From: Candidatus Sumerlaeia bacterium
GTDB lineage: Bacteria > Sumerlaeota > Sumerlaeia > SLMS01
Length of the DNA: 38,253 bases
Assembly: GCA_020831705.1 (NCBI GenBank)
Contig: JAFIGB010000139.1
Location: 1-38,253 of the forward strand
Direction of reading: 5' to 3'
The translations under genes and the position numbers were made by a program. Shown here one piece after another: positions 3,627 to 26,882 of the stretch. The first letter of the stretch is position 1. Each line of letters begins with the position of its first letter. The notes under the pieces were generated by a model. It did no database searches, was not told the origin of the DNA, and saw nothing but the letters and a program-made list of their open reading frames with translations.

Positions 3627-5075
3627 ATGCTGCCTCCCAATGGAAGTGGACAACCGCGAAAGGGTACCCCCTCCTTGATTGAAACTACCCGCATCGTCAT
3701 CGGTGGCGCCTCCACGACTCCACCGATGAAGCCCGACCTTATTCCAGGGCTGATCATTGACCGGCAGATTGGGTCGGGGGCGACGGCGCGTGTCTACCTG
3801 GCCATCGACGCCGAGGATCCAACGTGCCGTTATGCGGTGAAGTTTCTTTCCGCTGTTCTTTCCCACCAGGAGGACTCCCTTCGTCGGTGGAAGCGCGAGG
3901 CGGATGTGCTCCTGCGCCTCGATCACCCCAATATCGTCAAGGGGGTGCGCCACGGATTGGTCGAGGACCGTCCCTACCTTGTCATGGAGTACCTTCAGGG
4001 CGAATCCCTCGCCGACCGCATGCGTCGCAACGAGAAGCTGCCCGAGGAGGAAGTCCTCACCATTGCCCATTCCTGTCTTTCCGCTCTTGATGCCGCCCAC
4101 CGGGCGGGGGTGATTCATCGCGACATCAAGCCCGCGAATATTGTCCAGCTCAATGATGGCACGGTGAAGCTGACCGACTTCGGCCTTGCCCATGACGACA
4201 GCGATGATTCCCTCACCATGGCTGGTGCCATCGTGGGAACCCCTGTCTATCTTTCTCCCGAGCAGGCCACCGGTGGCGAGATCACCATCAGGAGTGATCT
4301 TTACGCCCTGGGAACCACGCTCTTTCACCTCGCCTGCGGGCGCCCCCCCTTCAAGGAACTCAACACGTCGCTGTTGCTCACGCGCAAAATCACGGACGAT
4401 GTTCCCGACGTGCGCCATATTGAGCCGTCTATCAGCGGTATTCTCGCCTTCCTGATTGCGGAGCTTTGTCAGCGCAGTTCGATGTCACGCCCAAGGGATC
4501 CCGCGGCGGCGCTCAAGCTTCTCGACCAACTGCAGTCCGGCGAGCTGGCGACCCCGTGTATAGACACGACCGAATCGAAGAAAAAGGGTCCACGCCCCAT
4601 CACCGCCGATACGATGAACTCCGAGGAAGTGGTGCTCAAGACCCTTGTCGGTGACGAAACCATCGATTCGCGCCCCCTTTTCCTCCAGCGCGGCGAGGTG
4701 CTCTTCTACGAGGATGACACCTCACTGGAATGCTACATTCTGATGTCGGGAAAAATGGAGGTCCTCAAGGCGGGGCGCCCCATTGCGACCATCGACCAGG
4801 AGGGCGGGTTCATCGGTGAAATGTCCCCCCTGCGCAAGGCCCCCCGCAGCGCCACCGTCGTGGCCCGCGAGGACACGGTGGTTCTCATGATTCCCGAAAG
4901 TGGCTTCCATGACTTCCTCATACGCCACCCCGACATGGCAATTCTCCTGGCGAGAAGTCTCGCCGAACGCCTCGAATCGATGAACATCCAGCTAACTGCT
5001 GCAAACAAGAAAATCGGCGCCCTCTCCCGCCACGTCACGGAAATGACCGGGGTCCTCAAGGAAACAAGGAAATAA
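3627..5075 (+). CDS. Ser/Thr protein kinase with C-terminal cyclic-nucleotide-binding domain
   Basis: A 482-residue soluble Hanks-type kinase. Visible kinase landmarks are the glycine loop GSGATARVY (~49-57), ATP-anchoring lysine AVKF (K72), catalytic loop HRDIKPANI (164-172), DFG (184-186) and SPEQ in place of APE (210-213), so it should be active. A polar linker (~305-345) leads to a cNMP domain (~350-455). Its phosphate-binding cassette reads GGFIGEMSPLRKAPRSATV, keeping the Gly-Glu and Arg expected for cAMP/cGMP binding. A short helical tail ends the protein. No transmembrane segment is seen, unlike many bacterial PknB-type kinases. By analogy with eukaryotic PKG, ligand binding may control the kinase; that is inference. 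The ribosome binding site is weak; ATG 3726 (MKPDLIPG) is an alternative start that keeps the kinase domain. Confidence 0.92.
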   Translation: MLPPNGSGQPRKGTPSLIETTRIVIGGASTTPPMKPDLIPGLIIDRQIGSGATARVYLAIDAEDPTCRYAVKFLSAVLSHQEDSLRRWKREADVLLRLDHPNIVKGVRHGLVEDRPYLVMEYLQGESLADRMRRNEKLPEEEVLTIAHSCLSALDAAHRAGVIHRDIKPANIVQLNDGTVKLTDFGLAHDDSDDSLTMAGAIVGTPVYLSPEQATGGEITIRSDLYALGTTLFHLACGRPPFKELNTSLLLTRKITDDVPDVRHIEPSISGILAFLIAELCQRSSMSRPRDPAAALKLLDQLQSGELATPCIDTTESKKKGPRPITADTMNSEEVVLKTLVGDETIDSRPLFLQRGEVLFYEDDTSLECYILMSGKMEVLKAGRPIATIDQEGGFIGEMSPLRKAPRSATVVAREDTVVLMIPESGFHDFLIRHPDMAILLARSLAERLESMNIQLTAANKKIGALSRHVTEMTGVLKETRK

Positions 5076-9517: not shown

Positions 9518-9556
9518 CACGACACGGTCGCCATTGCGTCGCCGGTCAAAAAGCCC

Positions 9557-10342
9557 ATGGATCCCCGCGAAAACCCAACTCCACGTGCCATTCTCGAAGC
9601 CCTTTCCCGGGGCGAGGTGACCGTTGCCCAGGCCGAGGAAGCCCTCGCGGCCTCCCAGATCGGTCATCTGGGGCACACGGCGCTCGATCTCCAGCGCGAG
9701 GCAAGGCGGGGGAGGCCGGAGGTCATCTACGGCGCTGGCAAGACCCCCACCCAACTTGTGGAAATCGCCGGGGCCATGTTGGATGCCGGTCAAAATGTCA
9801 TCGTCACCCGCCTCAAGCCCGAAGGGATGGCCGCGTTGATGGCAGATTTTCCAGCGGAAAAAATCACGGACAACCCGACATGCGGATTCCTCCATCTGGG
9901 GAAATCTCCACCCCGGAAGCGGGGCGGCCTTGTCGTTGTTCTCGCAGCGGGTACATCCGACCTTCCCGTTGCCGAGGAAGCTGCCCTCACCGCCCGGGCG
10001 CTTGGCTCGCCGGTGGAGACAGCATGGGATGTTGGTGTGGCGGGATTACACAGATTGCTTTCACGGGGCGACCTTCTTCGCCGGGCACGGGTCATCGTTG
10101 CCGTTGCCGGAATGGAGGGGGCGCTCCCCGGCGTGGTCTCCGGCCTTGTTCGCGCACCGGTTATCGCCGTCCCGACAAGCGTGGGCTACGGCGCTGGGTT
10201 TCAGGGGTTGTCGGCACTGCTGACGATGATAAACGGTTGCTCCCCCGGGGTCTCCGTGGTCAATATTGACAATGGGTTTGGGGCTGGTTACCTGGCCGAC
10301 ATTATCAATGAGTTGGGGGACGGCGATGTTCCCCACCAGTGA
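9557..10342 (+). CDS. larB: Pyridinium-3,5-biscarboxylic acid mononucleotide synthase (nickel pincer cofactor)
   Basis: LarB carboxylates and hydrolyses nicotinic acid adenine dinucleotide to P2CMN, the first step of nickel-pincer cofactor synthesis used by LarA-type racemases and epimerases. The 261 residues match the family length. Visible hallmarks are GRPEVIYGAGKTPTQL (~residues 52-67), a PurE-like core with VVVLAAGTSDLPVAEEAALTARALG, VAVAGMEGALPGVVSGLV and VPTSVGYGAGFQG. It starts 39 bp after the GH57-like gene. The usual partners larC, larE and larA are not in the window, so the rest of the pathway must be elsewhere or the gene acts alone. The ribosome binding site is weak. Confidence 0.92.
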   Translation: MDPRENPTPRAILEALSRGEVTVAQAEEALAASQIGHLGHTALDLQREARRGRPEVIYGAGKTPTQLVEIAGAMLDAGQNVIVTRLKPEGMAALMADFPAEKITDNPTCGFLHLGKSPPRKRGGLVVVLAAGTSDLPVAEEAALTARALGSPVETAWDVGVAGLHRLLSRGDLLRRARVIVAVAGMEGALPGVVSGLVRAPVIAVPTSVGYGAGFQGLSALLTMINGCSPGVSVVNIDNGFGAGYLADIINELGDGDVPHQ

Positions 10343-12081: not shown

Positions 12082-12115
12082 GTGTGGCCGCGGTGGGACT
12101 TGCGGCCACACTTTT
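12082..12115. terminator. Strong terminator between convergent genes
   Basis: A perfect 10-bp stem GTGTGGCCGC / GCGGCCACAC with a 10-base loop is followed by TTTTG on the plus strand. It sits 28 bp after the glycosidase stop and 13 bp before the CHAT gene stop. The T tail favours plus-strand termination, and the stem may also slow minus-strand transcripts. Confidence 0.8.
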
Positions 12116-12124
12116 GTATATACG

Positions 12125-15100
12125 CTACTCCCAGTCCCCACTGAGAACAACCGACGACCAATGGGCCGGGTGCTGGAATTCCGGCCTGGAACGGAGGCGA
12201 ATCTGCGAGCGCCGCAAGGCCTCCGCATGGTCATGGGTGCCGACCTCGCGATAGAAATACTTGAACAGGATGGCGGTTGACAGATCGTCGACGCGCCAAA
12301 GTGTGCTGAGGATCTGGCGGGTGCCTGCATAGACAAAGGCGCGGTTCAGGCCAATGACGTCGTCGCCGACCGAAATGCGGCCGAGTCCCGTCTGGCAGGC
12401 GCTCAGGGTGATCAGGTCCGCCTGTATATCCATGCTGAAAATGTCCGCAGCGGTAAGGCGACCGTCTTCCCCCTCCCCATCGGGGGCGAGGAGCAGGGCA
12501 CTTTCCAGTGGCTCGTCGGGGTCGAATTCACCATGGCTGGCGATGTGGATAATGTTGAACTGGCTGATGTTCTCGCGCAGCCAGGTCTCGGTGGCCTCCG
12601 AGCCCGTTCGCAGGGTCACCGTCTCAAAGTCAAAGACGAGCCGTTCTGCTTCCTTCTGGGCGAAGGGGAGGTCCATGGCGCCACCGGGAAGCTCGGGATT
12701 GCCAAGGGAGAGAACCCGGCTCGTGCCGCGCCGCTCCCCACGGCGGCCCATGGTGAACTGCAGGAGGCTCGCGCTTGGTGTATAGAACAGCGCCACCCGG
12801 TCGATGATGTTTTCCCCGGGACCGGCATACAGCGCGGAGAAGGGGAGGAGGTGCAGTTCACGGTGCGGGACGATTCCGAGGCGATCGTAGGAGGCCAGTT
12901 CGCCAAGAATCGGTGCCACCAGATACTGGGAAAGCTCCGTCAGTGGGCGTTCCACATTCTCAATGTTCTGGATGCCGACACGTGTTTGGGCAACAAGTCG
13001 GGTGATTGCCTCGCCGGAGACGGGAATGCGGTGGTGGGAAAGGTCGTTGTTGGAAAGGAGGAACACGACCAGTTCCTCGGGGAGAATGTGATAGACAAGG
13101 AGCCCCGTTCTTTCCTGGAGCATTGCCTGAATTTCGGGGACGGTGGCGGGATCGACACGAACGAAGGACGCCAGCTGGGGGTTGCGCTCCCGAAGGTCCA
13201 TCAGGAACCCCTCGTTTTCGATTCGTGCCCGGTCGAGTTCCGCCTCGATGGGGGGGCGATCCTCGATGGCGGCAGAAGCAAGTTGCGCCTGGAGGCTTGT
13301 GATGCGGTCGCGGAGTTCCTCCGCTCGTTGCCGGTCCTGGGCGTCCTCCACATCGCCGAGGGCATTCATGCGGTTGCCGATCAGGTCGATGAAGTTCCGT
13401 CCCCGGGCCTTTTCAGATGCCTCGAAGGCGCGAATGATTTCCCCCTCGTTGAGGAGGGCAAGGATTGTCGTGTCGTATAGATCCTGCTTGTCGAGGAGGA
13501 AGCCGTCCTGGAACTCCTCAATGCGGATGGAGGCGCGCATGAAGTCAACGACATCAATGGCGCGAAGGAGATAGTCGAGGGCCTCGTTGGCGCGACCGGC
13601 GGCGATGCGTTCCCGGCCAAGGCCGAAAAGCGAGCGCCAGTGCATTTCCGGAACGGGCGTGATGGCGGCCAGCATTTCCGCTTCCTGGAATGCCTCGCGG
13701 GCACCGTCCAGGTCGCCCACGTCAAGAAGCGCATCGGCCAGCGCGGTGATGGCCTTCGTTTCATTGAGTCGGTCGCCGATTTCCCGTGTCAGGCGCACCG
13801 CCTCGCGGAGTGGTTCGATGGCCTCCCCGGGTTTGCCTGCCAGGGTGAGGGTGATGCCGATGTTGCGCAGGGAATACGCCTCGCCCCATCGGTTGAGTTG
13901 GTCACGATCCGTTTGCAGGGCGGTCTGGAACTGGGTCATTGCCTCGTCGTAGCGCCCCTCGCTGCGATAGACAAGGCCGATATTGTTGTGTGTCGTGGCG
14001 ATCAGGTCTGCATATCCAACGCGATTGGCGACCTCAAGTGCCGCCTCCAGCTCGGACATAGCCCGTGTATAGTCATTCACCGCCCAGTACGTCAGGCCGC
14101 TTGCATTAAGATGGGCGATCCGGATGTCGTCCATTTCGTCAATGCTTCCCGCCAGGCGCAGGACTTCCTGGAGGGAGGCAAATGCCTCGCGATAATCGGA
14201 GCGCAACCACGAGGTGTTGGCCCGTTCGAGCTCGATCTCGGCAAGCTGGCGGGAGAAGTCACCATCTGGATCGAAGGCGCGCAATTCCTCGACCTGAAAC
14301 TCGAGCATGTCCAGTTCGTCCATTGCGAGATCGAAAAGGGCAAGGGCCTGAAGCACCCGGGCACGGTCGATGGATATTTCGAAGAGGAGAAGTGGTTCCT
14401 GATCGGCAACCATCATGGCAGCCATGGCGCCGGTTTCCAGTTCCTCAAGTGCATCCTGGTAGCGGCTTTGATAGACACGGAGGATGCGTGCGGCGCGAAG
14501 GTGTTCACCCACCTGATTGGCAGGTGAGAACATCTCGTAGCGGGCGGCCAGTTCCCGCGCCGTAACGAGGGCGGAATCGAAGTCCCCCTCCGATTCCCGG
14601 GCATCGGCCTTGCGCCCCAACAGGGAAAGTTCCATGTCCTCGTTGCCCAGCTGTATAGCCAGGTCGATGGCGGACTCATAGGCCGGGAAGGCCACCGGCC
14701 AGTTGCGGGAACGACTGGCGGCATCGCCGAGCCGTCCGTATGCCGCGGCAATTTCGGCGGGGTCTGCATCCTCCTCGACGAGGATTTCCGCGGCCCGCTC
14801 CTGGGCCCACATCGCCGAGCGCCACTGCCCAAGCTCCCCGCGGGTGTCCGCGAGCACGCCGTATATCGCAGCAAGATCCGTGGTTTCTCCGATTACTTCC
14901 GAAAGGTAGGCGATGCGCTCCAGAATAACCGCCTTGAGCGATGAGGCAGGTTGCTCGCGCAGTTCCACCCAGCGCCCCAGTTGCTCCTCCCACGCGAAGC
15001 GCGCCTCCTCGGGGTTGGCCGACGCATCGAGCATCAGGCCGATCCACCGGGAATCATCCAGCATTGCCTCGGTGACACCGATGGCCTCCAGATGCGCGGC

Positions 15101-18100
15101 AAGCGCCAGGCGCACGCCCTGCATTTCCCAGAGGGAAAAGTTGCCATCATCGGCAACGCTGACGGTCGCCCGTTCCACGTCCTGGACGGCATTGAAGATT
15201 CCGCGAAGGGAACGTGCACCCCGCGAGGGATACCACGTTGACGGTGTATAGCCACGGGCAATGACGGGCGTCTCGAATGCCAGATGGGACGCCAGGCCGT
15301 GATCCCCGGGAAGAACACCATCGGCTTTGATCGTGACCATCTCGTCCACGGGTCGCATCGACAGGCTGGAACGTGTGATGAGGAAGCTGGAAAGTAAATT
15401 GATCGAACGTTCCTCATCGGGAAGTGGATCGCCGAGGACAAAGAGATCCCCTTCAGCGGGAAGACTTGTATAGTCATCGATGACCTCCTCCGTTTCGTCC
15501 TCGTGATAGACGACGAGAAGGCGCCCGCCGGGAAAATCACGATGAAGGACGAGGCTCGGCGGGTGTTCCGTTACCCGGGGAAGGTCGAAGAGAAGTCCGG
15601 CGGTGTCGAAGCCCCCCTGCTCCGGGGCGTACCAGTCCACAATGCGAAGGGCCTCCTGGCGTCCCTCCTCCAGCAGGGTCCGGAGTTCATCGCGCTGGCG
15701 CGCTGCCTGAACCCGCAGGGAAAAGGATTCGGCCGTGGATTCGGGGAGGAACTGCTGGAGGCGTCGCTGCGTCGAGCGCCATTCCTCCCGCTTCGCCAAA
15801 AAGCGGGCCTGCCATGAACGTTCACGGGGTGTTCGCGCCGCCGGATCATGGAGTTCCGCCAGCCAGGACAGCCGCGCAATCCGCCATTGATCCGTCGCCG
15901 TCCATGCATCCAGCAGGTCTCCCTGCTCGACCAGCGTGCGGACGTGGCGCTCCTCCGCCCGGTCCAGCAATTGCCACGGAGGGGCCTGGCTTCCGATCAG
16001 CAGTCGTGATGGCACACGAACAAGGTCGTCCAGTCCTTCCCCAAGGAAACCCAGTGCCCGTTCGGAATTCGTTTCCGCCAACCCGGCCCTGATCCGCACC
16101 CACCAACGAAGGTGAAGCTGCCCTGAGGCATCTGTATAGTTGAGGGCTTTCTGGATGAATTCATCCCGTCGTTCCTCCTCCTCCCCGGTCAACACGGCAA
16201 CACGATGGTCGACCAGATGGGAGGCGAGGGAAATACGTCGCAGTTCCACGGGGGTGGCAAACTCGGAGGCAATACGTCGGATCCTTGCCGACTTTTTGTA
16301 GATCTCGTCACCCAGGGAGCGGACACGGGCCAGGTGGTCCACCATGGCAAGTCCCCCGTCGGGAACCGACATCAGGAGTCCCTCCAGGCGATGAACATCA
16401 ACCAGGGTCATCAGGTGCAGAAGACGGGCTGTATAGACTGGCGATTCCGCAGCGGGGGGGGGACCACCCTCGATCTGCCCTGCTGGTTCGTAGGCGAGAA
16501 GCGCCCGCGCGGCCTCCCCAAGCGTCGACCACGCCAGCGGTGAATCAGTCGGTGTGTCCAGCATCCAAAGCGCCGAGGCGGGAATGGTTGTCTTCAGTTC
16601 GGGTGATGTATTGAGGATTTCCCCCAGGCGCAGCAGGTGATGGGTCGCGCCGTTTACATCAAGGACCTCCACGTTTCCTGATTCAACGCGGGAAAAGGAA
16701 AGCCCGTCGACTGCTGCCTGGACGGCCCGTTGTATATCACCGGAACGAAGCGATTCGCCTGCAAGGCGGTGACTGGTCACCGACCGCATCGAGGCCTCGT
16801 AGGGAGTCAAATCAGGACCTTCATGGCGGGCAGCAATTTGCGCCTCGAACATGTCGATGGCTTCGCGGCGCTCCCCAAGGGACTGGCTGACACGAGCCAT
16901 CAACGCCCGCAACAATGCCCGTTCCTCGCCCGTGGTGAAGGCTTCCGAGCGCCCCCCCTGGTCGGACACCACGGTGGTAAATTCGAAAAGTGCCGACCGC
17001 CGCGTTACGGAGACATCGGGAATGAGCCCCGGTTCGTCCAGCATTTCCAGGGAACGTTGTGCGGCCCGGCGGGCCTCCAGAAGCAGGCTCCGGCGTTGGT
17101 CAACGTCGGTAATGGTGTTCGCGCGATACTCACGCACGAAGGCGACGTTGCGCCACGATCGGGCAGCCGCAAGGGAGTTCGAAGGATGCAGTTCCGCGAG
17201 TGATTCGAAAAGCCGTTCCGCCTCCCGGGATCCGGGATCCCTGTCGCGAAGGGCAAGGGCGCGCCGCCCAAGGAGCTCAAGGCGTGCCTGGCTGACCTGG
17301 TCCTTCGTCAGTTTATCCTGTTCCTCCAGTCGGTCCAGACGTTCCAGCGCCTGCTCAAAATGACGGGCAGACTGGTCTGAGTACATCGCCCGGTAGGCCG
17401 CGATACCAGCGTTCCAGTGGTACATCATCTCGGTGCGGGGATCCACGAACGACACCCCCGTGTCCTGACGCCGTGTATATAAGTCGTGGGCGCGTATGTA
17501 TTGATCGAGTCCCAGGGAGGTGTTGGCGGAATTGAGCAGGAGGTCGGCATGGAGTTGCTGCTGGCGTTCGGGATTCACCATGTTCATCGCCCGCTCGTAG
17601 GAGTCCATTGCCTCCTCCAGGTACTGGGTCCGGGGGCGTCCCCGTTCCCGGGAAAGGAGGAATCTTTGCTCCAGAAGGAACCCCTCGGTCAGAAGGTAAT
17701 ACGGGGAATCATCCATCCCGATGGCACGGCGTATGGATGAAAGGGCGCGCCTTGAAAGGGGATCCTCGTAGGAAACGGCAAGGCCGTACTTGTAGTGGTC
17801 GAGGCCCGTTGCACCCCGTGCCCTGCTCGCGGAGCGATACTCGGCGATCGCTTCCTTGAGGAGGTCCGGTCGTGTTTCCAGCGACTGGATGTGGCCGCGC
17901 CAGGCCTCGATATTGCCCGGATCATATTCAAGCAGTTGATTCCATGTGGCGCGTGCGAGCGCCCAGTCACCGAGGAGGGCCTGACGCCGGGCAGTTTCCA
18001 GGTAATGGAAGATGATGCGCTCACGAAGCCTTGCCAATCCTGTATAGCGCGCCGCTCCGCCGAGTGGTTCCAGCGCCTGTTCCAGTTCATGCAGACGACG

Positions 18101-19831
18101 GATTGCCGGCTGCAGTTCCCCCCCGTCAAGCATGTCGTCGATGAGCAGTCGCGATGCATCCACCGTGGGAAGCGGTGCCTCCGTCGGTTTCGCTGCCGCC
18201 TCCTCCAATGCGGAACGCCACGCCACCATGTCATTTCCCATCCCCGGCTTGCGGAGCAATTCCGCCTCGGCGAGCCGGATGCGTGCGAGGGCGTGGGGGT
18301 AGTCGCCGGTCTGGGAGGCCAGGTTGCGCAGGGCGAAGAGACGCGCTTCGTCCTCCTCTTCACTGGCTGTTGTAATCTGGATCAGCGTCGTTGCCGCCTC
18401 GTCCAGGATTCCCTGGTCATTGATGCCGAGGGAGAAGACACCGAGAAGTGCATTCCGGGTTTCCCCTCCAAGGCCAAGGGCGTGATATGCCTGCGATTGA
18501 AGGATATAGACACGGGAAAGGAGGTCGGGGGGAAGGCGGTCGGCGTCCCCCTCAAGGAGGGTGCCACTTGTCTGGAGGGCCGCCGTGTGGTTCCCGGCCA
18601 GGTACCGCAGCCGGGCAATCTTCAGCATGACTTCCGCAGCATCCCGATCATGGCCACCAGCGGCCAGGCGACCGCGAATGTTTTGGAGGTCGGTGAGTAG
18701 ATCCTGGCGGGGTTCGAAGGGTTCCCGATTGCGACGGGAATCCAGCCACGCCTCCTCGGCCTCCGCACCGAGAATCTCCACCCGAATGCGATCCTGCTGG
18801 ATGGGCTCCACGTCACGTTCGAGGAACCGGCCTCCAAGATCGGTTATCTGCCAGTAGCGCTCGGCGCGGAAGAGAAGTTGGAGCAGGCGGATCATCCCCC
18901 TGTCACGAATCTCCGTGTCGAGGGGGCGGCGCAGGCCCTCGCGATAGAGGGCAATGGCACCCTCAAGGCCATCCTCCGTTGCCTCCAGGACACGTTCAGC
19001 CTCGGCGATGAGTTCCTCGCCGTTCCTCTCCCTGTATAGCTGGGGGTTGTCAACGTGGGCGATTTCGAAGGTGGAGCCCCATCTTCCCGAGACCAGGAAC
19101 CCCTGCCGACCATGGTGCCGTGTCAGCGAATTGCCATTCGGAATGGGAAAGGAAACCTGGCGCCATTTTTCTCCGTCCAGGACCCAGATAACCGGGTTGT
19201 CTCCATCGCCGTAGCTGCCATCACGATTGGTGTCCTCGCTGTATAGCAGGGCGGCTGATCCGTTGATGTCGAGGGCACGAACCGGATACGGGGGTGGGAC
19301 CGGGAAATAATCCGGTGCCTCGTCCAGCTCCCTGATTGTGCGTGTGGAGAGGGAGTACGCATGGTAGGCAGGTGTTTCGCCCAGGGATCCCATTCGAAAA
19401 TAAAGGGTGGAGCCGTCGCGGGAAAAGAAAGGTTGTTCCACGGCCCGTCCCCGTGGTGTCAGGCGTTCGGGGCGACCATTGGGAAAGGGTTGGATATAGA
19501 CATCGCCCAGGGCGTCCTGACGGTGGGAGATAAAGGCGAGATGACGTCCGTCCGGTGAAAAGACGGGGGAGTAGGTCCGAGCGGGATGGCGAAGGTGCGG
19601 TTGGGGAACAGTAACGCGCCCATCGGTGATGCGGGCAGCGTGTAGATTGAGAATACCGGTACGTTCCGAGGAAAAGACAAGCCAGGAACCGTTGGGCGAC
19701 ACGGTCGGTGTATAGTCATCCGCCGGAAACGGTGCCACGGTATGGACGGGTGTCTCCGTGGCGGGAACCGGCCCCGGCAATGCCGCCAGGAGCAGGATCA
19801 CCAGGGTGGGGTGGAGGTGTCGCCGGATCAT
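12125..19831 (-). CDS. Giant secreted beta-propeller / TPR / CHAT (caspase-like) protein
   Basis: Starts at the ATG at 19831 (MIRRHLHPTLVILLLAALPGPVPATETP), with GGAGG five bases upstream and a 4-bp ATGA overlap with the lipoprotein gene. The track start at 19912 lies inside that gene. The product is 2568 residues: a signal peptide (~1-25), PD40/TolB-type propeller blades (SPNGSWLVFSS, SPDGRHLAFIS, SRDGSTLYFRM, ~30-240), then some 1900 residues of helical, mostly degenerate TPR repeats. These become canonical near the end (AYSLRNIGITLTLAGKPGEAIEPLREAVRLT). A C-terminal CHAT domain follows. Its catalytic dyad is intact: His in HIASHGEF (~2432) and Cys in SACQTGLG (~2479). It should be an exported scaffold carrying a cysteine protease. 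No membrane anchor is seen after the signal peptide. The target is unknown; the operon points to envelope work. Confidence 0.9.
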   Translation of the reverse strand: MIRRHLHPTLVILLLAALPGPVPATETPVHTVAPFPADDYTPTVSPNGSWLVFSSERTGILNLHAARITDGRVTVPQPHLRHPARTYSPVFSPDGRHLAFISHRQDALGDVYIQPFPNGRPERLTPRGRAVEQPFFSRDGSTLYFRMGSLGETPAYHAYSLSTRTIRELDEAPDYFPVPPPYPVRALDINGSAALLYSEDTNRDGSYGDGDNPVIWVLDGEKWRQVSFPIPNGNSLTRHHGRQGFLVSGRWGSTFEIAHVDNPQLYRERNGEELIAEAERVLEATEDGLEGAIALYREGLRRPLDTEIRDRGMIRLLQLLFRAERYWQITDLGGRFLERDVEPIQQDRIRVEILGAEAEEAWLDSRRNREPFEPRQDLLTDLQNIRGRLAAGGHDRDAAEVMLKIARLRYLAGNHTAALQTSGTLLEGDADRLPPDLLSRVYILQSQAYHALGLGGETRNALLGVFSLGINDQGILDEAATTLIQITTASEEEDEARLFALRNLASQTGDYPHALARIRLAEAELLRKPGMGNDMVAWRSALEEAAAKPTEAPLPTVDASRLLIDDMLDGGELQPAIRRLHELEQALEPLGGAARYTGLARLRERIIFHYLETARRQALLGDWALARATWNQLLEYDPGNIEAWRGHIQSLETRPDLLKEAIAEYRSASRARGATGLDHYKYGLAVSYEDPLSRRALSSIRRAIGMDDSPYYLLTEGFLLEQRFLLSRERGRPRTQYLEEAMDSYERAMNMVNPERQQQLHADLLLNSANTSLGLDQYIRAHDLYTRRQDTGVSFVDPRTEMMYHWNAGIAAYRAMYSDQSARHFEQALERLDRLEEQDKLTKDQVSQARLELLGRRALALRDRDPGSREAERLFESLAELHPSNSLAAARSWRNVAFVREYRANTITDVDQRRSLLLEARRAAQRSLEMLDEPGLIPDVSVTRRSALFEFTTVVSDQGGRSEAFTTGEERALLRALMARVSQSLGERREAIDMFEAQIAARHEGPDLTPYEASMRSVTSHRLAGESLRSGDIQRAVQAAVDGLSFSRVESGNVEVLDVNGATHHLLRLGEILNTSPELKTTIPASALWMLDTPTDSPLAWSTLGEAARALLAYEPAGQIEGGPPPAAESPVYTARLLHLMTLVDVHRLEGLLMSVPDGGLAMVDHLARVRSLGDEIYKKSARIRRIASEFATPVELRRISLASHLVDHRVAVLTGEEEERRDEFIQKALNYTDASGQLHLRWWVRIRAGLAETNSERALGFLGEGLDDLVRVPSRLLIGSQAPPWQLLDRAEERHVRTLVEQGDLLDAWTATDQWRIARLSWLAELHDPAARTPRERSWQARFLAKREEWRSTQRRLQQFLPESTAESFSLRVQAARQRDELRTLLEEGRQEALRIVDWYAPEQGGFDTAGLLFDLPRVTEHPPSLVLHRDFPGGRLLVVYHEDETEEVIDDYTSLPAEGDLFVLGDPLPDEERSINLLSSFLITRSSLSMRPVDEMVTIKADGVLPGDHGLASHLAFETPVIARGYTPSTWYPSRGARSLRGIFNAVQDVERATVSVADDGNFSLWEMQGVRLALAAHLEAIGVTEAMLDDSRWIGLMLDASANPEEARFAWEEQLGRWVELREQPASSLKAVILERIAYLSEVIGETTDLAAIYGVLADTRGELGQWRSAMWAQERAAEILVEEDADPAEIAAAYGRLGDAASRSRNWPVAFPAYESAIDLAIQLGNEDMELSLLGRKADARESEGDFDSALVTARELAARYEMFSPANQVGEHLRAARILRVYQSRYQDALEELETGAMAAMMVADQEPLLLFEISIDRARVLQALALFDLAMDELDMLEFQVEELRAFDPDGDFSRQLAEIELERANTSWLRSDYREAFASLQEVLRLAGSIDEMDDIRIAHLNASGLTYWAVNDYTRAMSELEAALEVANRVGYADLIATTHNNIGLVYRSEGRYDEAMTQFQTALQTDRDQLNRWGEAYSLRNIGITLTLAGKPGEAIEPLREAVRLTREIGDRLNETKAITALADALLDVGDLDGAREAFQEAEMLAAITPVPEMHWRSLFGLGRERIAAGRANEALDYLLRAIDVVDFMRASIRIEEFQDGFLLDKQDLYDTTILALLNEGEIIRAFEASEKARGRNFIDLIGNRMNALGDVEDAQDRQRAEELRDRITSLQAQLASAAIEDRPPIEAELDRARIENEGFLMDLRERNPQLASFVRVDPATVPEIQAMLQERTGLLVYHILPEELVVFLLSNNDLSHHRIPVSGEAITRLVAQTRVGIQNIENVERPLTELSQYLVAPILGELASYDRLGIVPHRELHLLPFSALYAGPGENIIDRVALFYTPSASLLQFTMGRRGERRGTSRVLSLGNPELPGGAMDLPFAQKEAERLVFDFETVTLRTGSEATETWLRENISQFNIIHIASHGEFDPDEPLESALLLAPDGEGEDGRLTAADIFSMDIQADLITLSACQTGLGRISVGDDVIGLNRAFVYAGTRQILSTLWRVDDLSTAILFKYFYREVGTHDHAEALRRSQIRLRSRPEFQHPAHWSSVVLSGDWE

Positions 19832-20457
19832 TTCACCCTCCAACGGCCATCGCGCTCCTGCACGTAGGAACTTGTCGGAGCCGCCTGCTGGTTCAATGTG
19901 GCAAGGATCCACGCGACATCGCCGCGGTCGCTTTCAGCCACTCCGGGAGTTGTTTGCATCAGCCGGTTCAGGATCACCTCGCGGTCCCGATTTTCCTCCT
20001 CAATAATCTGACGAACAATTGGTTCCTGAAGGGGCCAATCCTCGGGAGGTTCCGGGTTGAGGGTCAACATGCCGTCGTTCCCCTCGCGGACGACCCGGGC
20101 CGTCAGCAGGACGTCCAGATCATCACGGTTATAGCGTCGATTGTTCAGTGCCCGCATCACTTCCGCCTGGCTGCCTGTCATGGCCGGTGGCTCGATGATG
20201 TTCCCATCCGGGTCGACGGCGCGAACCGAGGAGAAGGTGGTCAGGTCACGACCGATCTCCTCGTAGGTTCCAAGGACCTGGCGTTCCAGTGCTGTTTGTT
20301 CCCCAACGAAGACGAGGTTCACCCCAAAGAGTTGACCGCCGCACCCCCCAAGGAGGGGAAGCATGGCGACAAGGCCGACAAGGATGCATGACTTCCAGAC
20401 ATGGCGTCCGGTGTTGTGGCTGATTGTGTCTATCATGGTGGGCTCCATTCTCTTCAT
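19828..20457 (-). CDS. Outer-membrane lipoprotein, YdbL/DUF1318-like (tentative)
   Basis: A 209-residue product. The ATG at 20457 overlaps the AsmA-like stop by ATGA and has GGAGG seven bases upstream, inside the end of that gene. A long basic n-region leads to a hydrophobic core and the lipobox LLGGC, with the acylated Cys at about residue 39. The mature part, QLFGVNLVFVGEQTALERQVLGTYEEIGRDLTTFSSVRAVDPDGN, resembles DUF1318 as in E. coli YdbL, as far as I can judge without a search. The tail includes QQAAPTSSYVQERDGRW. Position right after an AsmA/YdbH-like gene matches ydbH-ynbE-ydbL, where the lipoprotein partner completes or regulates the intermembrane bridge. The family call is inference. 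Confidence 0.7.
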   Translation of the reverse strand: MKRMEPTMIDTISHNTGRHVWKSCILVGLVAMLPLLGGCGGQLFGVNLVFVGEQTALERQVLGTYEEIGRDLTTFSSVRAVDPDGNIIEPPAMTGSQAEVMRALNNRRYNRDDLDVLLTARVVREGNDGMLTLNPEPPEDWPLQEPIVRQIIEEENRDREVILNRLMQTTPGVAESDRGDVAWILATLNQQAAPTSSYVQERDGRWRVK

Positions 20458-23400
20458 TGGTGTTCCTCCAGCAAGTCGATGAGCATGAGGAGGTAATCGC
20501 GGACGAGGGCGCTGGAAAGTTCCGAGGCGTCCTCCAGCGCGGGTCTCAGGTAGTTGCCAATATGAAGGCGCTCCAGCAGGGGAATACGGTAGGTAATCCC
20601 GCCGGGGCTTGCCATGGTGACTCCAATGTTGATCAGGCCGCCGCGCAATTCAATGTCCACCCCATCCGGGCGGCTGAACTGAAGGGCAGCAAGCACCGCC
20701 TGGGCGCCGGGGACGCCTCCATCCTCGTTGGCATTGCGCAACGCACCGCGGAGGACTTCCGCCTCGATGCGGCTGATGTCGAGGCGAATGAAGATATCCT
20801 CCAGATATTCAACCAGCCGGGAATCAGGGCTTTGCAACCCCTCCTGAATGCGCACGACAAACGGGAACCGAAGCGTTCCGAAGATGTCTACTTCCCGTCG
20901 TTCCTGCGGTGTATTACCAAGGACGGGAAGGAAAACGGCGGCGTCGAGTCCGGTCAGGGAAAAATCTCCGAAAAGCTGCTGGGTGCCCCGCCGTTCCTCC
21001 AACTCGCCGTGCATGGCAAAGGTACCACCGAGGAAGGATTCAGCACGGCCAAGGATCGAAAAACGGCCCCGATCGTCCAGTACCGTGATGATCGCATTTT
21101 CAATCACCGCCTCCATGGCGGGCGCAGCATAACTGGCACGGCCAAGGTTTAGTACCCCGGTATTGCGCCGTGGTGGTGTTGGGGGAATTCCGGGCAGGAA
21201 AAAGGAACGCTCGAAGTTCATCGTGCTAGACAGATCATTCACCAGCGTCGTGTCGTTGTGGCGCAACGAAATATCCGCGAAGTTTTGTGTATAGAACAGG
21301 CGCGCCCGTGCTCCCTGCGTCATGCTGTATCCGACGGCGATCTCGGCGGATCCGGAAGCCTCCTGCAGGTACCCCGCTGCGGCAATCGGAGCAAGTTCCT
21401 GGCGAAAGCGCATGGAGAACGATCCGGGAATCCGGTCCATGAGTAGCAATATATCCCCGAGCTCCATGATGGGGATGGGCTTGACGTCATCAGGTCGCCC
21501 GGACGGGTGGAAGTTGTCCAGGTGGGCCTCGACGACCAGGTCGGTGCCCAGCCCCTCGGACTTCACTGAAAACTCCTCGATGGTGATGGACGCCTGCTTT
21601 TCCAGCGGCATGGTTCCCGTGCGGCGGGCGTTCACAACCATACCTGATGAGATGGGAATGGTCATTCCCCCGCCATCATCGCCCGCCGGGGGAATCAATG
21701 TAAGATCATTGTGGAGGGAAAAACGCAGCAGGTCGGGATCAAAGGCGAAGGCCAGCTTGGATTCCAGGCCGCGTATATCCACCGCCTCATTGGCAATATG
21801 GCCCTCCTCGATGGCTCCATCGACCCTGATCGCGTAATCCCGGATCGGCAGGTCCGACCCTTCGGCAGTTCCAAGTGTCAGGGAGATATCGCCGTTCGAT
21901 GTCACCAGGCCGGCCAGGTCAACGGGCACCATGGCTCCGAGAAGTTCCGCCACCATGGACAGATCCAGGCGGACAAGGTTATAGTCCGCGACCATGGACG
22001 ATTGTTCCATATTATAGACAAGGTTGGCGATGAAGTCCAGGCCGCCGCCCAGGTCAAAAGTCAGGTCGCGGACCTCCACCCGGGACATGTCACCGGGAAG
22101 GCTTATCTTTGCGCCAAGGCCACCATCGGGGATGAACAGGGGTTCCTGTCCTTCCATGGCAACGGCCAGCGCCTCCCACCGGAGGGCGGGGATGTCCGCC
22201 GTGATGGAGCCATCCGTGCCGATCTCCACCCTGTTCTCAAGCAGAAGGCCGATGCCCTCGAAAAATTCCCCCATCACGCCGCCAATGCGGACGTGTCCCT
22301 CGTCGAGAACCGTATAGACAATCTCCTCGCCCAGGGTGACGTCCACAACGAAGCGATGGTCGACCTCCAGCCCGTCCATGAGAAGTTCCATGGGAAAGGC
22401 GAGGAGAAGCTGGGGGGTGTCGTTGAACAGGGCCATCTCCACCCGGGCGGTGCCGTCCATCACCTCACCCATGGTCAGGTCGGCAATGACCGTCCCGCCA
22501 AGGGTGGTTTCCCCGTCGAGGGCTTCCAGCAGCACCCCGGCCTCCTCGAGGATGAGATATCCAAGGTCGAGAAGCCCCCCGTGGTCGAGGGTCAGTAGGG
22601 GCGCCATGTCGACCCTGACGCGATCGCCCTCCATGGCAAGGGAGCCGGTCATGGCAAACGCCAATGCCTTTTCCAGGAGGACGTCCAGTTTGTCTATTTC
22701 GACGGCAACGGAATCCTCCCCAAGGATCGCCCGCAGGGCCGTCTGGATCCCCCACGATTCCAGGAGGATTCCCTGTTGCTCCAACATGGCGGAGAAATAC
22801 TGGTCCGGTTCCAGACCAAGGGAAACCTCCCACGATTCGGCATTCGCCTGCCCTGCATGTATATCCAGATGAAGTCCACCCTCCAGAAGCACCATGCCCG
22901 GTTCGACGAAATGATCGATCCATCGTTCCTGGAGCAGGGCGAGATCCTTCAGGCCAAGGTGAAGCCGCACATCACTTATGAGGTCATCCTTCAGGGCAAG
23001 AATGCCATCCAGCTCAAGGAGATCTGTTTGTATATCCCAGGTGGCATCAATGTCGAAGGGCTCCATGAGGCGTGCCTGAAGGGTCACGTGGAGGGAATCC
23101 TCCATTGTTCCCTCGGGAAGGAAGGCGGATCGCAGGAAGAAATCCTGCAGGGCAAGGACCATATCCGCGTTGATTGTCCTCCCTGCACCGCGCGCCTCCA
23201 GATTGCCCTCCAATTTGCCGATCAAATCAACGAGGACCGGTTCCAGGACGATGTTGGTGCTGGCGAATTTTTCCAGTCCCTCCAGGGAGACGTCCCACTC
23301 CGCCGTGGCTGTATAGACCTTGGCCCCGTAATGTTCAAACATGCCATGGAGGCTGGCGAAGGCCGGAAAGTCCAGCTGCCAGCGGCCGGATTGCTCCTCC

Positions 23401-24926
23401 GATGAGGCGAAAAGCTCCTCCAGTTGGAGGTGCATCGAAAGCCCCGCCAGGTTCACGGTGTCTGCTGTTCTAAGCATGGCCGCGGGGGGAACCAACCCGG
23501 GGTTCAACTTCCAGGTTCCGGGGAGGATTTCCAGGGACAAGCTGCCGTCTTCCACCTTCTCCAGATCCACCAGATTCCCCGCTGCCGTGAGCAGCACATC
23601 CAGATCGCCCCGGGCGGGAATCAGATCACGGAAGGTCGTCTTGTCGGCCAACTCGATCGCCTTGGCGGCTGAAAACTGAAAGTCAAATTTGAAGGGGGAT
23701 GATCCATTCGATTCTTCGAGGAGCGACGCGGTGGCTTGCATCCAATCCGCGTCCAGATCCAGTGACGCCGCTCGTGGCATGAGTTCCTTCGAGTCCACGT
23801 CCGACACCACCTTGAGGCGGATGGGCGGCATGACCAGTTCGGAGTCCTCGGCGGCAAAGGCGGGAAGTGCCACATCCTCGACATCCAGCGAGAGGTGAAC
23901 GGGGGTCGCTCCGTTGCTCAGGTGACCCATGAAGATGGTGTAACGAATTTCCCCCGCCGTGGGGATGTGGTGCCCCTGGTCGAACAGCGAGGCCAACGGT
24001 TCCAGGGCGGGAAGGGTCACCTTCCAATTGGCGACGAGGCCTTCATCATCCGCCTCGGCACCAAAATCGAAAACATTCGCCCGCCCCCCTGCATCCAGAA
24101 AACCGGTCAACTTGAAGGCGGAAAAATCCAGTTCATCCCCCCGACTCCAATTGGAGAGCGTCGTGGCGAATTCCAGAGGGACCTCGTCGCGCCCATTTCC
24201 CAAAATACCGGCGAAGCGCATCCCAAGGGGTGCCTCATCACCGGGCCATCCCAGGTAGAAGGTGCCATTGTGGATCGTCACCTTCGGTGCCGGGCTCCCC
24301 TCCATGCGGTCGTCCCAGGTCACGTCGATGTGGTTGACCCGCAAATCCATGGAAAGATTTTTCACCGGAAGGAGCATCCGGGGAAGCAGCTGGGCGAGAT
24401 CAAGGACGAACGGCTCGCCCGGTTCGATGGGTTGGGGTGGCGGGGGAGCAGGATCCTCCTCCCCGGGCGGCGGGATGAAGGCATCGAAATTGAAGGTGCC
24501 ATCCTCAAACCGCGTGGCGTGGACGGTGATGCTTTCCACATGGAGGGGGCCGGGGCGTGCCGCTCCTGTGACAAGGGGGACAATCCCCTTGGTCAGTGCA
24601 ATTCCATGAATTTCAAGAAACCTGGCGGCCGGGTCATCGGCATCCAGATTTTCGTCCCGCAAGGTCACCCGACCGACGGCAACGGGTGCCCACCAGCCGA
24701 GACTGATCTTTTCGATTTCCACGGTTCCGGGGAAGATGCCGCTGACCTGACGGGAGATCACCCCTTCAATGGGGAGGAGGGATATGATGGTGGGCAGGGA
24801 AAGAAGGAGGAGAAACAGGGCCACAAAGGCCCAAGCAAGCCCCCGCAGGAGACGCTTCCAAAGGGGCCTGCGGGCAGGCCCCTTTGGTGGACGCTTTTCA
24901 GCAGTGACGGGCGGTGTATCGGGCAC
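20454..24926 (-). CDS. AsmA/YdbH-like bridge-type lipid transport protein, 1490 residues
   Basis: A GTG start at 24926 has GGAGAAAG upstream. After a basic Pro-rich head, one N-terminal membrane helix (LAWAFVALFLLLLSLPTIISLL, ~30-52) anchors it in the inner membrane. The next residues, ISRQVSGIFPGTVEIEKISLGWWAPVAVGRVTLRD, are the typical AsmA-superfamily opening. The remainder is long, beta-rich and repetitive with alternating hydrophobics, as expected of the taco-shaped groove of TamB, YhdP and YdbH. The last ~300 residues (GVLNLGRASYAAPAMEAVIENAIITVLDDRGRFSILGRAESFLGG and on) resemble the C-terminal DctA-YdbH region. Proposed role: span the periplasm and move phospholipid to the outer membrane. 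It is longer than E. coli YdbH (about 880 residues), nearer TamB/YhdP length. Confidence 0.8.
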   Translation of the reverse strand: MPDTPPVTAEKRPPKGPARRPLWKRLLRGLAWAFVALFLLLLSLPTIISLLPIEGVISRQVSGIFPGTVEIEKISLGWWAPVAVGRVTLRDENLDADDPAARFLEIHGIALTKGIVPLVTGAARPGPLHVESITVHATRFEDGTFNFDAFIPPPGEEDPAPPPPQPIEPGEPFVLDLAQLLPRMLLPVKNLSMDLRVNHIDVTWDDRMEGSPAPKVTIHNGTFYLGWPGDEAPLGMRFAGILGNGRDEVPLEFATTLSNWSRGDELDFSAFKLTGFLDAGGRANVFDFGAEADDEGLVANWKVTLPALEPLASLFDQGHHIPTAGEIRYTIFMGHLSNGATPVHLSLDVEDVALPAFAAEDSELVMPPIRLKVVSDVDSKELMPRAASLDLDADWMQATASLLEESNGSSPFKFDFQFSAAKAIELADKTTFRDLIPARGDLDVLLTAAGNLVDLEKVEDGSLSLEILPGTWKLNPGLVPPAAMLRTADTVNLAGLSMHLQLEELFASSEEQSGRWQLDFPAFASLHGMFEHYGAKVYTATAEWDVSLEGLEKFASTNIVLEPVLVDLIGKLEGNLEARGAGRTINADMVLALQDFFLRSAFLPEGTMEDSLHVTLQARLMEPFDIDATWDIQTDLLELDGILALKDDLISDVRLHLGLKDLALLQERWIDHFVEPGMVLLEGGLHLDIHAGQANAESWEVSLGLEPDQYFSAMLEQQGILLESWGIQTALRAILGEDSVAVEIDKLDVLLEKALAFAMTGSLAMEGDRVRVDMAPLLTLDHGGLLDLGYLILEEAGVLLEALDGETTLGGTVIADLTMGEVMDGTARVEMALFNDTPQLLLAFPMELLMDGLEVDHRFVVDVTLGEEIVYTVLDEGHVRIGGVMGEFFEGIGLLLENRVEIGTDGSITADIPALRWEALAVAMEGQEPLFIPDGGLGAKISLPGDMSRVEVRDLTFDLGGGLDFIANLVYNMEQSSMVADYNLVRLDLSMVAELLGAMVPVDLAGLVTSNGDISLTLGTAEGSDLPIRDYAIRVDGAIEEGHIANEAVDIRGLESKLAFAFDPDLLRFSLHNDLTLIPPAGDDGGGMTIPISSGMVVNARRTGTMPLEKQASITIEEFSVKSEGLGTDLVVEAHLDNFHPSGRPDDVKPIPIMELGDILLLMDRIPGSFSMRFRQELAPIAAAGYLQEASGSAEIAVGYSMTQGARARLFYTQNFADISLRHNDTTLVNDLSSTMNFERSFFLPGIPPTPPRRNTGVLNLGRASYAAPAMEAVIENAIITVLDDRGRFSILGRAESFLGGTFAMHGELEERRGTQQLFGDFSLTGLDAAVFLPVLGNTPQERREVDIFGTLRFPFVVRIQEGLQSPDSRLVEYLEDIFIRLDISRIEAEVLRGALRNANEDGGVPGAQAVLAALQFSRPDGVDIELRGGLINIGVTMASPGGITYRIPLLERLHIGNYLRPALEDASELSSALVRDYLLMLIDLLEEHQ

Positions 24927-24957
24927 CTTTAACTTTCTCCAGGCGGGTGCCGGAGAT

Positions 24958-25869
24958 TCATCGGTTCCTTACGACGGCGGTGGCCCGACTGAATCTGTCG
25001 GCAGCCCTTCCCCCTTGATGGGCGTCAAGCCCTGTTGCTTGAAGGTGGCTGTTGATACGATTCAGACGATCACGAAGGGGTGGGTGGGTCGACGTCAGCC
25101 AGCCCCCGCCGGTTCGGGTTCGTGGGCTTGCCATTGTTTCCAGAAAGCGGGGAAGCCCGGTGGGATCATATCCCGCCGTTGCGGCCAACTCGATCCCGAG
25201 GGCATCCGCCTCGTATTCCATGGAGCGATCGAATCCCTTTTCGAAAAGGGTTTCCATCCCCAGGTCCACGGCGGCGGAATACCGGGAAATGTTGTCATCG
25301 ATGGTCACGGCGGCCAGATCGGTGAGGCCGCCAAAAAAGTCCGCCCGCTGGATCATGGAAACCATGTGGCGCTGGGTGATGTGGGCGATTTCATGGGCCA
25401 GCACACCGGCCAGCTGGGCCTCATCCTCCATCCGCTGCAACAGTCCCGCGGTGACAAAGACAGAACCACCAGGGCAGGCCCATGCGGTGACATCATCGTG
25501 GTCGGAAACGATGAAGACCCAGGGAAGTTCCGGGCGATCGGAATACCGGGCGACCGTCAAGCCAACATTGTTGACGTAGCGCTGAAGATCCATGTCGGGG
25601 TGGATACCGCCATAACGTGTGACGGACTTGAGGGCGATGCCCTCGCCGAGGGTGATCTCGGTCTCGTCGGGCATATTGCCCCGTGCCGCTGTAACACGGG
25701 TGGCGGCTTCTCCGGCGCGCCGTGCCCGTTCGTCGTCCACACCACCGATACGCATGCCAGCTTCAGTCATCTGGCCCAGTTGGGTGGCGGATACGCCATT
25801 GCCTCCGCAGCCTGCGACAAAGGCTCCAAGGAGGGTGAGCATCATCAGGGAAAGGAGTGGGGTTTTCAT
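24958..25869 (-). CDS. M48-family zinc metalloprotease lipoprotein (BepA/LoiP-like)
   Basis: A 303-residue product with signal peptide and lipobox FVAGC (Cys21). The peptidase unit has AWACPGGSVFVTAGLL, the zinc motif HEIAH at 159-163 (AGVLAHEIAHITQRH) and the third-ligand region EYEAD (~218-222). All catalytic residues are present. A final STHPPLRDRLNRI element is also family-typical. Unlike BepA it has no C-terminal TPRs. BepA and LoiP act in outer-membrane protein quality control, so this one probably trims or degrades envelope proteins. Its ATG overlaps the SH3b stop by ATGA, and the AsmA-like gene begins 31 bp beyond its stop, so it belongs to the same transcript. Confidence 0.92.
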   Translation of the reverse strand: MKTPLLSLMMLTLLGAFVAGCGGNGVSATQLGQMTEAGMRIGGVDDERARRAGEAATRVTAARGNMPDETEITLGEGIALKSVTRYGGIHPDMDLQRYVNNVGLTVARYSDRPELPWVFIVSDHDDVTAWACPGGSVFVTAGLLQRMEDEAQLAGVLAHEIAHITQRHMVSMIQRADFFGGLTDLAAVTIDDNISRYSAAVDLGMETLFEKGFDRSMEYEADALGIELAATAGYDPTGLPRFLETMASPRTRTGGGWLTSTHPPLRDRLNRINSHLQATGLDAHQGGRAADRFSRATAVVRNR

Positions 25870-26414
25870 AATGGATCGATTCCTCCTTCAGCGGCAAAGG
25901 CATCCAGTTGGTCCCGGGTGATGCGGGCGCTCAGGTCCTTGACCTTCTTGTAGGATTCGATTGTTTCAGTGGGGACTTCTTTACCGCCCAGTTCCTCGGA
26001 GGTGGGACTGAGCCCTCGGATGGCGGTCACATTGGAGCGTTGCCCGGCCCCAAGGTCATCGCGGACGGAGAACATCCCGCCCGTTCCCCCCGTTGCAGGG
26101 GCGACATCGGTGACGTTCAGGCGGGCAATGAACCCGGTCTTTCCATTGGGTGTGCGTACCTCGTAGCGCATGCGGTCCTCGTTGATGACACGAAGGGGTG
26201 CGCCACGGTCGAGTTCGGCAACGACGGCGTCGCGGGGGCCTGTTCCGGCCCGCACCACCGTTCCGTCGCGGCGAGTATAAACAGTGACCTGTTGTTGCTG
26301 GAGGATTACCGGGATTGAAAATCTCGCTTCGAGATTCGGTTCGGTCCCTTCCTGTGGCTCCGTGCCGTGGCTGGAGAGGAGGAGGGAGCAGACTAGGAGA
26401 ATTGACGAGAACAT
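25866..26414 (-). CDS. Secreted SH3b-domain protein
   Basis: A 182-residue product from the ATG at 26414, preceded by CAGGAG. Residues 1-17 (MFSSILLVCSLLLSSHG) form a signal peptide. A bacterial SH3 domain spans about 38-105: QQVTVYTRRDGTVVRAGTGPRDAVVAELDRGAPLRVINEDRMRYEVRTPNGKTGFIARLNV. The rest is polar and ends with a helical stretch. SH3b domains bind peptidoglycan or peptides in the periplasm. It is the second gene of the six-gene unit, translationally coupled to the M48 protease, and may be its localiser or adaptor (inference). Confidence 0.85.
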   Translation of the reverse strand: MFSSILLVCSLLLSSHGTEPQEGTEPNLEARFSIPVILQQQQVTVYTRRDGTVVRAGTGPRDAVVAELDRGAPLRVINEDRMRYEVRTPNGKTGFIARLNVTDVAPATGGTGGMFSVRDDLGAGQRSNVTAIRGLSPTSEELGGKEVPTETIESYKKVKDLSARITRDQLDAFAAEGGIDPL

Positions 26415-26456
26415 ATTCTGACTCCTGCTGGTCGATTTGGAATCGCGCTGATGCGG

Positions 26457-26882
26457 TTATTCCGCTTTTTTCTCAAGGGGGCCGGCCCAGGTGGAAAGTC
26501 CCCCGTTCAGGTTGGATACCTCAGAGAAGCCTTTTTCAAGGAGAAATGCTCCTGCGTCCATGCTTCTCATGCCCGAGGCGCAATAAACAACGACAGGACG
26601 GGTGGGATCGAGTTCGCCGAGGCGCCCTTCCAGGTCATCCACGGGAATGTGGGTGCTTCCCGGGATAAAGCCATCGGCGGCAAGCTCTTCGGCCTCACGG
26701 ACGTCGAGAAAGACCGGGGGATCCGGTGCCTCAAGGAGGGCAAGGACCTCCTTTGCAGCGAGTTCCTGAGGAACGGCACCGACAGATTCCCAGTCATTGG
26801 AGCCGGAAGAGGGAGGCGGGGTTTTTGGTGCCTCCGGTGCTTCCTGCTCCTTATTCCCAAAAAGGAAAGAGAAAAAACCCAT
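26457..26882 (-). CDS. Rhodanese-domain sulfurtransferase
   Basis: A 141-residue single-domain rhodanese from the ATG at 26882 (MGFFSFLFGNKEQ). GGAG lies nine bases upstream; the track start at 27176 adds 98 non-homologous residues. A short hydrophobic head and a Pro-rich linker precede the domain (~35-135): FLDVREAEELAADGFIPGSTHIP, active-site loop CASGMRS with catalytic Cys101, and LNGGLSTWAG at the end. It could carry persulfide sulfur or act as a redox sensor. It is the first gene of the six-gene unit, 42 bp before the SH3b gene. Why a rhodanese leads an envelope operon is not apparent. Confidence 0.9.
   Translation of the reverse strand: MGFFSFLFGNKEQEAPEAPKTPPPSSGSNDWESVGAVPQELAAKEVLALLEAPDPPVFLDVREAEELAADGFIPGSTHIPVDDLEGRLGELDPTRPVVVYCASGMRSMDAGAFLLEKGFSEVSNLNGGLSTWAGPLEKKAE

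Follow-up and report, generated by a model that had tools for sequence, protein, structure and literature searches.

The E. coli proteins YdbH and YnbE, the latter an outer-membrane lipoprotein, facilitate phospholipid transport according to two papers (PMC11784454, PMC12977461). Overproduction of TamB, YhdP or YdbH lowers the activity of the TPR-lipoprotein/protease pair LbcA–CtpA, and NlpI–Prc has been reported to be responsive to phospholipid transport (PMC12569750). An open question in Gram-negative bacteria is how the delivery of phospholipids to the outer membrane is matched to growth of the wall and to quality control of proteins; the work on NlpI–Prc and LbcA–CtpA ties the two together through no known physical link.

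The DNA analysed here (the window, 38,253 nucleotides from a Candidatus Sumerlaeota MAG of 4.65 Mb) carries an operon that shares features with several of these systems. As in E. coli YdbH–YnbE–YdbL, one operon encodes an AsmA-superfamily inner-membrane protein and, after it, a lipoprotein of the outer membrane and a DUF1318/YdbL domain; here, however, the AsmA-like protein has 1490 rather than 879 residues and is not detectably YdbH, the YdbL domain is carried by the lipoprotein itself, the YnbE segment is unrecognisable, and genes for a giant protein, an SH3b protein and an M48 protease are added. Canonical DUF1318 loci of other Sumerlaeia, Verrucomicrobiota and Desulfobacterota likewise encode a lipidated N-terminus with a C-terminal YdbL domain, several adjoin a long membrane-anchored protein, and the Verrucomicrobiota N-termini are YnbE-like; they differ in lacking an adjoining giant, in their N-terminal segment and in their upstream proteins, which are only distantly related. 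NlpI–Prc and LbcA–CtpA, which reportedly follow phospholipid transport (PMC12569750), also combine an outer-membrane-associated TPR scaffold with a protease, but they consist of a C-terminal-processing protease and a separate TPR lipoprotein, whereas CHAT and TPR lie here in one polypeptide of the bridge operon. The giant resembles the TPR-CHAT protein Csx29 in placing TPRs before a CHAT domain with a His/Cys dyad, and differs from it in being exported, in having a propeller and tandem CHAT, and in standing outside any CRISPR context. The M48 protein is an exported lipoprotein with the protease fold of BepA and LoiP; unlike BepA it has no TPR domain and is paired with an SH3b gene.

The sequence-only reading of this DNA had known of no system with such a composition, and none was found in the literature searched, which included only a minority of subscription papers: no paper combined AsmA-like and CHAT terms, and none put an exported CHAT protein of the caspase-like kind into the envelope. 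The locus is a real, conserved envelope module that has apparently not been described before.

The operon and its gene products

A six-gene operon with three ATGA overlaps and gaps of at most 42 bp had been proposed from the sequence, and both its minus-strand ORFs, found where that proposal had placed them, and its junctions were borne out (Table 1). Start and stop codons overlap as ATGA between the SH3b and M48 genes (25866-25869), the AsmA-like and lipoprotein genes (20454-20457) and the lipoprotein and CHAT genes (19828-19831), with gaps of 42 bp between rhodanese and SH3b and 31 bp between M48 and AsmA. A GGAG-type Shine-Dalgarno sequence precedes each of the six starts; the giant begins at ATG 19831 and the rhodanese at about 26882, the latter giving a length that matches its relatives. 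Past the last operon gene, where the giant and NAGPA genes converge, lies a strong stem-loop that is likely a terminator, and a promoter scan 5′ of the operon found no sigma-70-like site. Among the other genes of the window, the divergent neighbour (27205-30192) encodes a 995-aa protein that combines an MFS-like membrane part, a domain resembling spermidine synthase and a tail with a weak TPR match; a protein kinase domain is fused to a C-terminal cyclic-nucleotide-binding domain at 3627-5075, and the ORFs at 7493-9895 (800 aa) and 34357-35250 (297 aa) gave no Pfam match.

Table 1. Positions of the operon's genes, domains and flanking stem-loop in the window.
Feature	Coordinates	Strand	Basis
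Stem-loop, likely terminator	12082..12111	.	12-pair stem, then TTTT on + strand
Giant, predicted periplasmic, 2568 aa	12125..19831	-	signal peptide, TolB/PD40 propeller, TPRs, internal pseudo-CHAT, TPRs, C-terminal CHAT protease (Pfam/NCBIfam)
C-terminal CHAT of giant	12134..12949	-	PF12770 E=7.9e-62; dyad IASHG His2433, SACQTG Cys2479
Best-scoring TPR pair in giant's TPR arrays	13784..14002	-	TPR_12 E=3.3e-25, six stretches
Internal degenerate CHAT-like domain of giant, ~residues 1290-1596	15044..15964	-	His/Cys dyad absent
TolB-like/PD40 beta-propeller of giant	19379..19744	-	TIGR02800 E=4.8e-11 over residues 57-178; PD40 E=3.6e-16
Lipoprotein	19828..20457	-	lipobox Cys39, variable segment, conserved helix, C-terminal YdbL/DUF1318 domain
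AsmA-superfamily bridge-like protein, inner-membrane-anchored (predicted), 1490 aa	20454..24926	-	N-terminal TM segment, GWxxP motif
M48 zinc metalloprotease lipoprotein, HExxH intact	24958..25869	-	PF01435 E=1.2e-32; BepA-like protease domain
Secreted SH3b-domain protein	25866..26414	-	SH3_4 E=5.6e-5; conserved C-terminal RGL...F..EG tail (alignment of 12)
Rhodanese-domain protein, 141 aa	26457..26882	-	PF00581 E=2.3e-19; CASGMR loop

The proposal of an AsmA/YdbH-like bridge stands for an AsmA-superfamily anchor and a long beta protein, and falls for YdbH proper. Taken alone, the window protein matched only the AsmA-clan DUF748 (E=0.013), and a PDB search with its profile gave no match; the PF05170 (AsmA) cut-off was exceeded by two orthologues (G007, G008) and by the homologues L048, L065 and L068. 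The AF2 model of residues 301–1490 consists nearly entirely of long beta strands at modest confidence (pLDDT 73.7, pTM 0.44), and its PDB neighbours are ApoB and LptD at low TM-scores. Compared with E. coli YdbH by hhalign, the 11 orthologues gave Prob 0.2, that is, no detectable sequence homology beyond the superfamily. By homology, the AsmA-like bridge may transport lipids.

The assignment of the lipoprotein to DUF1318/YdbL was rescued by its family profile and by its fold. The single sequence reached only E=0.003 and 18.5 bits against a DUF1318 cut-off of 27; the family profile matched the crystal structure of E. coli YdbL (PDB 28oj) with E=5.3e-5, hhalign against YdbL/DUF1318 gave Prob 82, and the AF2 model (pLDDT 82.7, 34 sequences) had 28oj as its top Foldseek match (prob 1.00, TMt 0.85, rmsd 2.0 Å, E-value 4.9e-3). 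Judged by profile and predicted fold, the C-terminal half is a YdbL domain. Cys39 is invariant in 34 homologues, and residues 42–50, between this cysteine and the conserved helix, were modelled with low confidence in isolation; the segment occupies the place of YnbE's docking strand, and no YnbE match was detectable by sequence in the Sumerlaeota lipoprotein (hhalign Prob 1.7). Separately, DUF1318 lipoproteins of the Verrucomicrobiota phylum (L174, L176, L178) resemble natural YnbE–YdbL fusions, with the motif CTPTIKTE..VTIKPxQIxLxVNLKVDxEL followed by the YdbL domain.

In the giant, the signal peptide, the N-terminal TolB/PD40 propeller and the internal degenerate CHAT had all been overlooked. 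A hydrophobic signal-type start was seen in nearly all homologues, with a lipobox in place of the plain export signal in L064 and several Spirochaetota. The internal and C-terminal CHAT copies aligned by hhalign over 350 columns (Prob 92.8, E=4e-7, against E≥0.028 for five control segments) when giants of Kiritimatiellia and Desulfobacterota were included, the match from Sumerlaeota sequences only being marginal (E=0.0012); direct HMM matches placed an internal CHAT at the equivalent position in L064 (1e-6) and L068 (5e-21).

The two protease types that had been recognised in the window, CHAT and M48, both have intact catalytic motifs. The HExxH of the M48 protein is invariant in 12 orthologues, and its PDB matches were 3c37 (M48, E=4e-25) and 6sar (BepA, E=1e-20); at 303 aa and without TPR, it scored 106.5 bits with the BepA model, below the cut-off of 570, which places it outside BepA itself. 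The SH3b protein might act as an adaptor. The rhodanese had been counted as part of the system; it is not a constant part and is probably a family-level addition outside the core, for it was not found beside the loci of the sister family f2. As a component it was rejected: it occurs only in family f1, where some genomes have it apart from the other genes or in duplicate. A duplicate rhodanese gene lies 5′ of SH3b in L030 and L031 (G002, G006).

Conservation within the order and recurrence beyond it

The five genes from SH3b through M48, AsmA and lipoprotein to the giant form a syntenic block in each of the 11 relatives sampled within the order (six from the window's family and five from the sister family), contig ends permitting, and because the block recurs in every sampled relative it is not a product of chance. 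The adjacency claimed in the sequence-only reading extends through the order, where, as far as contigs reach, the AsmA-like gene never occurs without these neighbours. The lipoprotein is the best conserved protein (43–58% identity) and the AsmA-like protein the least (17–23%), with giant orthologues at 30–37%. The order's 12 genomes have exactly one complete CHAT domain apiece, which lies inside the operon in eight and on another contig in G004, G005, G010 and G011, where the operon contig ends first. Among 27 genomes from the rest of the class, no AsmA-like match was found, and weak lipoprotein matches in five were of the canonical DUF1318 type with the giant absent; in L089 and L093 such a canonical lipoprotein adjoins a long membrane-anchored protein. 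A search of 39 Sumerlaeia genomes found no TamB. The window's genome encodes an Omp85 protein, consistent with an outer membrane.

A genome-wide scan with the AsmA-like protein alone found nothing, which is probably explained by its fast divergence, and the lipoprotein profile was therefore used to find distant loci, giving 33 named loci beyond the order. The triad of AsmA-like protein, lipoprotein and giant was found in Kiritimatiellia (L047), Deltaproteobacteria (L048), KSB1 (L065), Zixibacteriota (L068), Spirochaetota (L066, L067) and an unassigned MAG (L069), in Desulfobacterota (L156 and L157, in full), and in 16 of the 34 loci checked in the Spirochaetota phylum, again in full; in Salidesulfovibrio brasiliensis (L063), a named isolate, it is cut by the contig end and seen in part. 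In many triad loci the AsmA–lipoprotein and lipoprotein–giant junctions overlap. By profile comparison, the window's AsmA-like protein is nearer to those of giant-bearing loci than to those of canonical DUF1318 loci: its C-terminus groups with the giant-bearing Kiritimatiellia, Desulfobacterota, KSB1 and Zixibacteriota proteins (E 1e-17 to 1e-28) and its N-terminus with the Spirochaetota proteins (E 2e-9). L137-L143 of the Spirochaetota phylum keep the AsmA–lipoprotein pair without a downstream giant, and this pair is a simpler form of the bridge system.

CHAT proteolysis, taken at first as a constant feature, did not hold up across these phyla. The dyad motifs are present in every Sumerlaeota giant with its C-terminus present, and HG and SACQ[TS]G occur in all Sumerlaeota C-termini and in L047, L048, L064, L156 and L157; the examined giants of Spirochaetota, KSB1 and Zixibacteriota, a few of which are truncated by contig ends, showed no His/Cys dyad, the C-terminal CHAT there being degenerate or missing. 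Because one giant from Spirochaetota retains an above-cut-off match to the end of the CHAT profile, the domain has most likely decayed there rather than never been present. To judge from the motifs, several lineages do without CHAT catalysis, so a protease cannot be the universal function of the giant, whose constant modules are the signal sequence, the TolB-like propeller and the TPRs, with tandem CHAT in most lineages.

The SH3b–M48 pair lies upstream in Sumerlaeota and L047 and downstream of the giant in L048 and L157, and in L156 both domains are found in a single ORF downstream of the giant. The pair was found only beside giants with an active-type CHAT, an association that, with few independent lineages, is suggestive only. 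L064 has an intact CHAT dyad and no adjacent AsmA, SH3b or M48 gene.

Two further contexts of the lipoprotein were observed. In Nitrospinota (L049-L050, L052-L058, L060-L062, L070) the family occurs without AsmA or giant, and at several of these loci (for example L049, 3446-5283) the gene before it encodes about 416 aa, in L049 classed by Pfam as a beta-ketoacyl synthase, which hints at a possible link to fatty-acid synthesis. The divergent gene beside the lipoprotein–giant locus of L064 (858-1583) resembles, by its motifs, a PlsC-type acyltransferase of phospholipid synthesis.

Function of the module

The genes present, their domains, the intactness of the catalytic motifs, the signal sequences and the conservation of linkage are observed; lipid transport, docking, protease activity, its substrates and the coupling between them are what we infer. 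We tentatively favor, at a little less than even confidence, an operon for a YdbH/YnbE/YdbL-type bridge across the envelope that comes with a dedicated scaffold-protease in the periplasm, coupled to the state of the bridge or to lipid flow. The AsmA-like protein would be anchored in the inner membrane and carry lipids along a long beta groove, and its C-terminus would dock on the lipoprotein of the outer membrane, which combines a lipidated N-terminus with a YdbL-type domain. The giant, a propeller/TPR protein, would bind the outer-membrane end of the bridge and read bridge state or lipid flow, and in lineages with an intact C-terminal CHAT it would, together with the SH3b–M48 pair, cut envelope substrates such as cell-wall hydrolases or misassembled outer-membrane proteins, by which the lipid supply of the outer membrane would be matched to wall and outer-membrane-protein assembly. 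It is published precedent and anatomy that lead us to regard the giant as a candidate bridge scaffold and, where the dyad is intact, as a candidate bridge-responsive protease. The model is favored by the five-gene synteny, the recurrence of the triad, the YdbL fold, the AsmA cut-off passed, the single CHAT per genome and the failure to find TamB in the class, as well as by an SH3b–M48 linkage that is kept despite the move from upstream to downstream; against it stand the lineages that do without CHAT catalysis, L064 (active CHAT, no adjacent AsmA, SH3b or M48), L137-L143 (no giant), Nitrospinota (lipoprotein without the triad), the modest confidence of the AsmA model and the low TM-scores of its PDB matches.

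A bolder version is doubtful: that the module is a widespread, so far undescribed machine of the envelope, present in six bacterial phyla or more, with a phospholipid bridge permanently wired to the tandem-CHAT giant; in it the inactive CHAT with propeller and TPRs would sense the bridge and switch the active CHAT, and proteolysis would be gated by lipid flow. Possible, though rather unlikely, is that the giant serves the bridge chiefly as its scaffold or gating subunit, with CHAT as an ancestral binding fold and residual protease activity as a lineage-specific extra. The internal CHAT copy lacks the dyad even in active-type giants, the triad persists in Spirochaetota, KSB1 and Zixibacteriota despite a degenerate C-terminal CHAT, and the modules that stay constant are the propeller and the TPRs, all of which would fit such a subunit; the dyad is nevertheless intact in all Sumerlaeota, Kiritimatiellia and Desulfobacterota giants with the C-terminus present, and an M48 protease adjoins nearly all of these.

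It is improbable that the AsmA-like protein serves TamB-like assembly of outer-membrane proteins instead of lipid transport, with M48 and CHAT clearing misassembled outer-membrane proteins as BepA does. The nearest relatives of the M48 protein are BepA/LoiP-type proteases and TamB was not found in the class, but the cluster has neither a TamB domain nor a TamA-like partner, and its lipoprotein is of the YdbL type, which belongs with YdbH/YnbE. Improbable as well is a set of co-regulated envelope housekeeping genes without physical coupling: co-regulation can preserve gene clusters, and AsmA–lipoprotein pairs do occur without a giant, yet the overlaps are repeated, the same triad spans distant phyla, and SH3b–M48 has been rearranged and is still linked. 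An anti-phage or cell-suicide system of the Csx29 TPR-CHAT type, to which the CHAT match to Csx29 (E=8e-11) and weak matches of the giant to PADLOC models might point, was rejected as scarcely credible because the giant carries an export signal and so would not be cytoplasmic, and the cluster is conserved throughout the order, lacks defence neighbours and has no PADLOC match in its other genes.

Returning to the favored reading of a bridge with its own scaffold-protease, an operon encoding both is a defined candidate for the connection between lipid transport and proteolysis, and the presence of the triad in Salidesulfovibrio brasiliensis (in part) and in Spirochaetota means that this connection may be testable in culture.
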